Origin: a virus
Length of the DNA: 37,128 nt
Virus record (IMG/VR): IMGVR_UViG_3300021127_000017
Span: 1-37,128 of that record
Direction: 5' to 3' (one strand)
Positions 3,001-3,797 of this stretch are shown piece by piece. Numbering within the stretch: position 1 is the stretch's first letter; each line of letters starts with the position of its first letter. The translations under genes were made by a program, and so were the position numbers. The notes under the pieces were generated by a model that saw only the letters and a list, made by a program, of their open reading frames with translations, did no database searches and was not told where the DNA came from.

Positions 3001-3035
3001 CAATAACATTTTTTTTTAGTAAAACATTTAAAAAG

Positions 3036-3110
3036 TCCGACAGGCTGGATTTGAACCAGCGATACATACCTTATAAGAGTACTTCCAAAACCAGGCTAGA
3101 ATACTGTCGG
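3036..3110 (-). tRNA. tRNA-Ile, anticodon UAU (reads AUA)
   Basis: The minus strand folds as a cloverleaf of 75 nt including discriminator A. The acceptor stem CCGACAG/CTGTCGG is a perfect 7 bp. The D-arm is TTCT/GGAA with GG in the loop. The anticodon stem GTACT/GGTAT contains two G-U pairs around the loop CTTATAA, giving anticodon TAT with U33 and A37. A 5-base variable loop precedes the T-arm GCTGG-TTCAAAT-CCAGC. CCA is not encoded. Position 26 seems absent or absorbed into the D-stem, and the first pair is C1-G72, both somewhat unusual. AUA is common in this AT-rich genome, so the tRNA likely supplements the host. It lies downstream of the structured RNA and its promoter. Confidence 0.8.
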
Positions 3111-3121
3111 TTAAAAGTAAG

Positions 3122-3241
3122 GTACGGTAAGCAATTCCAGCACATTGAATGGCTGCCCTATCTATCCACATGAACTCATTCACGCTCACACGGGTATGTA
3201 TATGTAACTATAACATCCTAAGAAAGTGTTGCTTACCGTAC
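3122..3241 (-). ncRNA. Candidate structured RNA with 13-bp terminal stem
   Basis: The minus strand from 3241 begins GTACGGTAAGCAA and ends at 3122 with its exact reverse complement, enclosing 94 nt. Inside, CGTGAA/TTCATG forms a 6-bp hairpin with a TGAG loop, and CAGC/GCTG and ATGU/ACAU-type short stems are possible. A perfect consensus promoter places the transcription start at 3241 or 3242, that is, on the first base of the stem. No reading frame of note lies inside. The tRNA-Ile follows 11 nt after the stem, so both may be one precursor. I do not recognise the family: I see no hammerhead core and no tmRNA or 6S hallmark. Confidence 0.55.
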
Positions 3242-3247
3242 TCTTAT

Positions 3248-3277
3248 ATTATACTATAATGTATTATTTAATGTCAA
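3248..3277 (-). promoter_or_regulatory. Perfect sigma70-type promoter for structured RNA and tRNA
   Basis: On the minus strand TTGACA (3277-3272) is followed by 18 bases and TATAAT (3253-3248), both full consensus. The -35 hexamer lies within the last codons of hsp20. The predicted start is about 7 nt after the -10, at 3241. Confidence 0.75.
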
Positions 3278-3797
3278 TAAGTCTTGGACGCTCTTCTTTT
3301 GGAAGTTCACGTACAAGCTTGACTGTTAGAATTCCGTCTTCAAATGTAGCAGATCGGACTTCAACATATTCCGCCAAAGCAAATGCACGAGAAAATGAAC
3401 GGGTTCCAATGCCCTTATGGGCATAATTCTTTTCACCATTCTCTTTAATTGATCCTGTAATGATCAATGCATTTTTTTCTTGCTCAACTGAGATGTCTTT
3501 CTTGGAGAATCCCGCCACTGCAAATTCAATAAGGAATGTATCTTCATCCTCTTTGACTACATTGTATGGTGGGTAATTGCCAGAATTTTTGACAATTTTT
3601 TCCCCAATTTTTTCTAGATTCTTTACTTGCTCATCCCATCCAATAAAATTACTGGAGATGTTTGAGCCATTATATACTGTGTATACTGCTGGAGATGCAG
3701 TTGCTGTTGTTGTGATTGATGTGCCAAATGCATTCAAAGTGCTATTTGTTCCTGCTGTATACATTGCGAAGGCAGAGTTGCCGTTTAGTTGTGTCAT
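3264..3797 (-). CDS. hsp20: Small heat shock protein (Hsp20/alpha-crystallin, IbpA-like)
   Basis: This is a 177-aa ATP-independent holdase chaperone. Residues 1-70 are a low-complexity Thr/Ser/Ala-rich arm. YPPYNV starts the alpha-crystallin domain, with VAGF, a SxEQEKNALIITG strand, the GIGTRSFSRAFALAEYVEV stretch and GILTVKL. The tail PRLIDIK matches the IbpA end. Phage Hsp20 proteins are best known from cyanophages and T4-like phages, where they are thought to assist folding late in infection. The gene has its own perfect promoter, a 5' stem-loop and a strong ribosome site (AAGGGG, 5 nt before ATG), which suggests high independent expression. Its final codons contain the -35 of the next promoter. 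Confidence 0.92.
   Translation of the reverse strand: MTQLNGNSAFAMYTAGTNSTLNAFGTSITTTATASPAVYTVYNGSNISSNFIGWDEQVKNLEKIGEKIVKNSGNYPPYNVVKEDEDTFLIEFAVAGFSKKDISVEQEKNALIITGSIKENGEKNYAHKGIGTRSFSRAFALAEYVEVRSATFEDGILTVKLVRELPKEERPRLIDIK

Follow-up and report, generated by a model that had tools for sequence, protein, structure and literature searches.

A family of phage RNAs carried beside tRNA genes is complementary to helices 69–71 of host 23S rRNA and may act on the ribosome in trans

Results

The window analysed in this work is a stretch of 37,128 nucleotides from a virus record (IMGVR_UViG_3300021127_000017). The terminases nearest to that of the window come from Streptomyces phages (about 65% identity), which makes an actinobacterial host likely. 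On the minus strand, a promoter can be read from the sequence at 3248–3277 (TTGACA at 3272–3277, an 18-nt spacer and TATAAT at 3248–3253), the −35 element of which lies inside the last codons of an hsp20-like gene (3264–3797, minus strand) that forms the upstream context outside the RNA. Six nucleotides separate TATAAT from GTACGGTAAGCAA (3229–3241, minus strand), one fewer than counted in the initial annotation, which had placed the promoter itself correctly. The exact reverse complement, TTGCTTACCGTAC (3122–3134, minus strand), follows 94 nt further on, so that both arms can form the 13-bp closing stem (P1) that had been described before. P1 encloses a non-coding RNA of about 120 nt (3122–3241, minus strand), which is supported by its predicted fold and by a family of 67 loci. 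RNAfold assigned −36.6 kcal/mol to this segment, as compared with −26.9 ± 3.5 for shuffled sequences (z = −2.8; 1 out of 200 shuffles was as good). An inner hairpin of 6 bp (CGTGAA/TTCATG), proposed earlier, is feasible, but RNAfold favoured a 10-bp version and the hairpin sequence is not kept among relatives. As already recognized, a tRNA gene lies 11 nt downstream, namely tRNA-Ile(tat) (3035–3110, minus strand), which presumably shares one transcript with the RNA. After this tRNA, we observed on the same strand a sugar-nucleotide dehydrogenase-like ORF (1699–2982) with the NAD-binding motif GFVGLGKLG, and a second ORF (668–1780) that overlaps its 3′ end; both might be read from the same promoter as the RNA.

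When we searched for the exact stem, with arms allowed to be 80–110 nt apart, the 13-bp pair was found together with a common core sequence and the promoter in 9 viral contigs, all of which carried tRNA genes downstream. A core-pattern search identified three loci within tRNA arrays (L016–L018), where the same core was enclosed by wholly different complementary stems. Since the exact pair recurs in nine contigs and relatives possess different, equally complementary stems, the locus is, judging from these sequences, not a product of chance. A wider core pattern returned 74 stretches, mostly with a closing stem and neighbouring tRNAs, and after stretches without a family-type stem had been dropped the family consisted of 67 IMG/VR loci, with 41 different sequences and 30 different P1 helices. 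P1 measured at least 11 bp in the family, and at its inner positions all 330 of 330 cells across the 30 helices were standard pairs, with 4–6 pair types at each position; swapped partners paired in 46% of cases, although some pairing is expected given that the best stem per locus was chosen. With 30 different stems pairing in 330/330 cells, the structure is therefore maintained by compensatory change. In an identical scan, best-stem scores ranged from 27.5 to 35 for members and from 14.5 to 18 for unrelated loci, while the sister RNA L063 (see below) scored 23.

A same-strand tRNA touched the RNA in 60 out of 69 loci, usually at a distance of 0–7 nt, and family RNAs were found as the first element of tRNA arrays, within them or outside them. 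Identical promoter hexamers at spacing 18 stood upstream of relatives heading a tRNA array, and array-heading loci of the GTACGG/GTACAG group retained this arrangement. Relatives thus keep both stem and promoter, the loss of which the initial annotation had named as the outcome that would speak against its proposal, and its view of a small, structured and promoter-driven phage RNA with co-oriented, touching tRNA genes was supported. What it had missed is that the stem sequence varies freely and that the only fixed part of the family is the core, CUUAGGAUG-n-AUAGUUAC. Conservation of this core is partly imposed by the search pattern in the 74-stretch set, a bias that is absent from the stem-only set, from the Streptomyces BLAST set and from scans that did not require UG. 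Individual folds, read by eye, point to another hairpin (P2), the stem of which varies and the loop of which carries AGUUAC, while the fold of one alignment of all sequences showed P1 alone, as the subfamilies differ inside. At one locus, L013 (IMGVR_UViG_3300031884_000080), the same RNA and an identical hsp20 protein were accompanied by 24 tRNA genes in the 9 kb downstream, which is a nearly full set.

The family is absent from Rfam and undescribed. At the gathering threshold, Rfam 15 recovered only the tRNA from the window, in agreement with the earlier statement that the RNA matches no known family, and sub-threshold matches (E ≤ 10) were unconvincing. Only tRNAs were likewise found in 18 further family loci, and no match above threshold in the Streptomyces phage and sister RNAs. 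BLAST searches with RNA queries against annotated phages gave no window-type relatives, and the open-access literature that we searched did not describe the RNA, which does not disprove the existence of a description elsewhere. Several other matches were discarded as coding- or chance-like, with neither a family-type stem nor tRNA context: the relaxed-stem matches L019–L029, the genome matches L092–L093, and L069, L095, L101, L125, L126 and L128. Within two of these (L019:598–704 and L025:422–528), a coreless inverted repeat of GGTAAGCAA closes a short segment after a promoter-like sequence, and might represent an unrelated RNA or chance. Upon inspection, we also dropped mimicry of the 23S GTPase centre by GUAAGAG/GUAAUAG hairpin loops, which are not conserved, and an internal GCAC:GUGC pairing, which fails in the window.

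The core proved to be the reverse complement of helix 69 (H69) of 23S rRNA and of the strand that follows it (1910–1929; E. coli numbering throughout), apart from a small central indel or mismatch. Its invariant letters CUUAGGA are antisense to E. coli 23S 1923–1929 and AUAGUUAC is antisense to 1910–1917. The other fixed letters, UG, mismatch the E. coli sequence but match the 23S rRNA of Actinomycetota (Nonomuraea, L107, and Arthrobacter, L108: GTAACTATAACCATCCTAAGG), so that the window core CUUAGGAUG-UUAUAGUUAC corresponds, with one G omitted, to the reverse complement of H69 and the next strand in Actinomycetota. In the window, this core comprises element E2, CUUAGGAUG (3214–3222, minus strand), complementary to actinobacterial 23S 1921–1929, and element E1, UUAUAGUUAC (3204–3213, minus strand), complementary to 1910–1919 in helix 69, with its 3′ part, AGUUAC, in the P2 loop. 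None of 3000 shuffled cores matched as well as the real one; the conserved segments are thus complementary to a target beyond chance, as in a trans-acting antisense RNA. The predicted core:23S duplex reached −27.8 kcal/mol at 1907–1934, as compared with −21.2 for the next 23S site and −16.6 for the best 16S site. Every member of the main family carried an indel or mismatch opposite approximately 1917–1922, and none matched perfectly.

We found further antisense segments in the 3′ half of the RNA, which had not been used in the exact-stem, core-pattern or wider-core-pattern searches. In the window these are E3a, CCAUUC (3147–3152, minus strand), complementary to 23S 1968–1973, and E3b, GUGC (3140–3143, minus strand), complementary to 1964–1967 and invariant in the Streptomyces phage RNAs. 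A possible fourth element, E4, GGAAUU (3133–3138, minus strand), is complementary to approximately 1937–1942, shares 2 nt with P1 at the inner end of this stem and is the weakest of all. Summed over the 3′ halves of 22 diverse members, the best antisense window in E. coli 23S was 1935–1985 (rank 1 of 168, +4.6 sd). Against Arthrobacter 23S the 3′ halves scored 335 versus 255.8 ± 9.9 for shuffles, above 60 out of 60, with one overlapping window scoring higher. Words common to the 3′ halves are fragments of CCATTCGTGCAGG and GGAAT, antisense to 1962–1973 and approximately 1937–1942, respectively. Among 41 mutually related sequences, GTGC was present in 71% of the 3′ halves (18% when shuffled) and GGAA in 73% (27% when shuffled). 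Assignment of 3′ elements in single members rests on short words, and two loci (L034 and L036) are without clear words for the third element.

In three intergenic core-pattern types without the family stem (L031, L043 and L063), ATTCGTG lay adjacent to the core, and we retained them as sister RNAs. When we scanned for the non-permuted order, with UG not required, we identified the further types L096, L102 and L100 in soil contigs, with promoters, terminators or other closing stems. They represent a second topology, in which the same elements occur in reverse order. The Streptomyces phage Gilson (L103) encodes a sister RNA after its endolysin gene, and BLAST with this Gilson-type RNA returned 126 Streptomyces phage records. 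In 14 aligned Streptomyces phage RNAs, GTGC and CTTAGGA were invariant, while TATA-n-TTAC varied mainly opposite C1914, at which these RNAs do not pair. The predicted Gilson fold leaves the core unpaired and places GTGC at a hairpin loop. Sister RNAs located outside tRNA arrays have their own terminators.

Two additional conserved parts were observed in these RNAs. A 5′ hairpin with invariant GGAAATGAGTCCG, which matches neither the 16S nor the 23S sequences tested, is present in Gilson (L103:11728–11850), L109–L120 and L124, and its stem shows compensatory changes in the Streptomyces phage RNAs (ACAGCC/GGTTGT versus ACGACC/GGTCGT). In L043, L072, L097, L098 and L100, the non-permuted core is preceded by roughly 50 conserved nucleotides (CTTCGGGGACTGC.CGGCTTGTGGGCCGAT.GACAGACTGA.AGTTGTT), which probably belong to a larger RNA.

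A scan for CTTAGGAC revealed two further intergenic candidates, the cores of which fit E. coli-type H69. L127 contains CTTAGGAC-GTTATAGTTAC within a stem, and its marker proteins are nearest to those of Proteobacteria phages. L129, located after a capsid gene, contains CTTAGGACAGTTATAGTTAC, GTGCATTCGTG and a terminator, and its marker proteins are nearest to those of Bacillus/Moorella phages. In both, the change runs in the direction predicted from a fit to the host, two cases being few.

Discussion

Sequence comparison and statistics establish the RNA family, its compensatory stem, its complementarity to 23S rRNA, the fit to the likely host phylum and the recurrence in two topologies; from these sequences we infer that the RNA is produced, binds and has an effect. 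Phages are known to attack host translation by means of proteins and to bring their own tRNAs, and we know of no natural phage RNA that acts in such a way on host rRNA. Since the few conserved letters of the family match, in antisense, the very centre of host 23S rRNA, these phages probably grip the host ribosome with an RNA. We propose that the element is probably a phage trans-acting non-coding RNA directed at 23S rRNA H69–H71 of free or assembling 50S subunits; that H69–H71 is the target seems very likely from the complementarity, whereas an inhibitory effect on such subunits is put forward only tentatively. The role in host translation suggested in the initial annotation is accordingly plausible, but the conserved core antisense to H69–H71 had been missed.

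In this proposal, the long and freely varying P1 would hold a scaffold from which short stretches with complementarity to 23S domain IV are displayed. Helix 69 and its following strand (1910–1929) would be paired by CUUAGGAUG and (U)UAUAGUUAC, and strands around helix 70/71 (1964–1973 and approximately 1937–1942) by CCAUUC..GUGC, possibly together with GGAAUU. Probably transcribed jointly with tRNAs, the RNA would bind free or assembling 50S subunits and hinder 30S joining or 50S maturation, and the phage would therefore throttle or re-allocate host translation. H69 forms the bridge to 16S helix 44 on the decoding side (PMC12805891), and growth of E. coli is inhibited by antisense PNA to helix 69 (PMC7038079). 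Helix/loop 70 is required for subunit association and for contacts with tRNA and RRF, and is cut by mycobacterial MazF toxins, of which MazF-mt6 cuts 50S but not 70S (PMC5408214). These roles, and the fact that H69 is buried in the bridge in whole ribosomes, are the reason why we consider free or assembling 50S subunits to be the likely binding partner. Against our proposal stands that a ribosome block would also harm translation of the phage, unless timed or partial. Moreover, the match is never perfect in the main family, the third-element words are short and there are just two E. coli-type cases.

Could the same complementarity serve another purpose? As a shield or splint, the RNA might base-pair with the helix/loop 70 region of 23S when 50S subunits are free, protecting this region from host ribonuclease toxins or holding cut ends together during anti-phage defence. 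E2 and E3/E4 indeed flank loop 70, and GGAAU, consistent with the enrichment of GGAA in the 3′ halves, would mask AUUCC (approximately 1938–1942), the site of the actinobacterial toxins MazF-mt3 and MazF-mt6 (PMC5408214). We nevertheless regard this as unlikely, given that GGAA is missing from some members and, in the window, lies partly within P1, that the strongest pairing involves H69 rather than loop 70 and that these hosts are without a known toxin. A guide or blocker of H69 modification (pseudouridines 1911/1915/1917 and methyl-C1920), with the imperfect centre of the duplex marking the site, appears quite improbable. To our knowledge, guide RNPs are not known in bacteria, and neither inspection by eye nor Rfam revealed C/D or H/ACA-like elements. 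The non-pairing place also differs in the Streptomyces phage RNAs, even though every main-family member is imperfect opposite approximately 1917–1922 and helix 69 is a modification hub in which TlyA methylates C1920 (PMC12805891).

Two further explanations do without rRNA binding. The frequent contact with a same-strand tRNA could mean that the RNA acts in cis on the tRNA operon, as a leader for processing, stability or antitermination, and resembles 23S only incidentally. This we deem very improbable: it is the letters pairing with 23S, phylum-specific ones included, that are fixed, and the RNA may head an array, lie within one or stand apart from any. Sister RNAs, furthermore, follow the endolysin gene and have their own terminators. 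Protection of the tRNA precursor, one of the functions originally considered, is unsupported, since the array positions of relatives vary and the Streptomyces phage sister RNAs follow the endolysin gene. It is hardly conceivable that the RNA instead directs a nuclease to host rDNA. The 23S target stretch overlaps the sequence that the homing endonuclease I-CeuI recognizes, and this conserved part of rDNA is known to be used in homing; however, 7–10-nt elements that are split among loops and circularly permuted do not resemble a continuous guide, and an unsystematic look recognized no nuclease gene beside the RNA.

Returning to base-pairing with the host ribosome, we consider it reasonably probable that phages of Actinomycetota and some of other phyla carry recurrent anti-ribosome RNAs that pair in trans with host 23S H69–H71, are fitted letter by letter to the H69 of the phylum and control subunit joining, assembly or ribosome survival. 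If true, ribosomes would be controlled in a new manner, by a natural RNA that base-pairs with host 23S on its inter-subunit face, and H69–H71, at which antisense PNA already inhibits growth, would be marked as a site that nature may use too. The proposal also gives an unannotated RNA of phage tRNA arrays a function that can be tested, and relatives of this RNA occur in more than 100 cultured Streptomyces phages.

Among known systems, the T4 RNAs rnaC and rnaD (species 1 and 2 stable RNAs, of 119–139 nt) likewise lie beside tRNA genes of a phage array, and the T4 record assigns no function to them. They differ in that they lack an H69 antisense and share no core, and we rejected them as sequence homologues, as their BLAST gave enterobacterial and other phages with no actinobacterial phage among the matches listed. 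In rnaD (L106:2054–2172), TCGCTACC and AAGGAATT are antisense to adjacent 23S 1929–1936 and 1937–1944; AnYang and VR20 retain the former but not the latter, and about five such 8-mers are expected by chance. GOLLD and ROOL are phage or prophage RNAs near tRNA genes that are several times longer than the present RNA, and neither was matched by Rfam in the window and 18 family loci. snoRNAs and archaeal C/D and H/ACA guide sRNAs are also structured, with split antisense to conserved rRNA, unlike which the phage RNA has no box motifs (by eye) or Rfam snoRNA match and belongs to a phage/bacterial setting. With trans-acting antisense sRNAs of bacteria and phages it shares a predicted promoter of its own, stem-loops, short seeds in loops or unpaired regions and, in its forms outside tRNA arrays, terminators. 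Those known to us act on mRNAs, whereas the phage RNA would target rRNA through three or four short segments that lie apart from each other and match the host phylum. Helix 69 is also the rRNA target of the antisense PNA oligomers reported by Kulik et al. in 2017 (cited in PMC7038079), which are synthetic, in contrast to the natural, structured and multi-site phage RNA.
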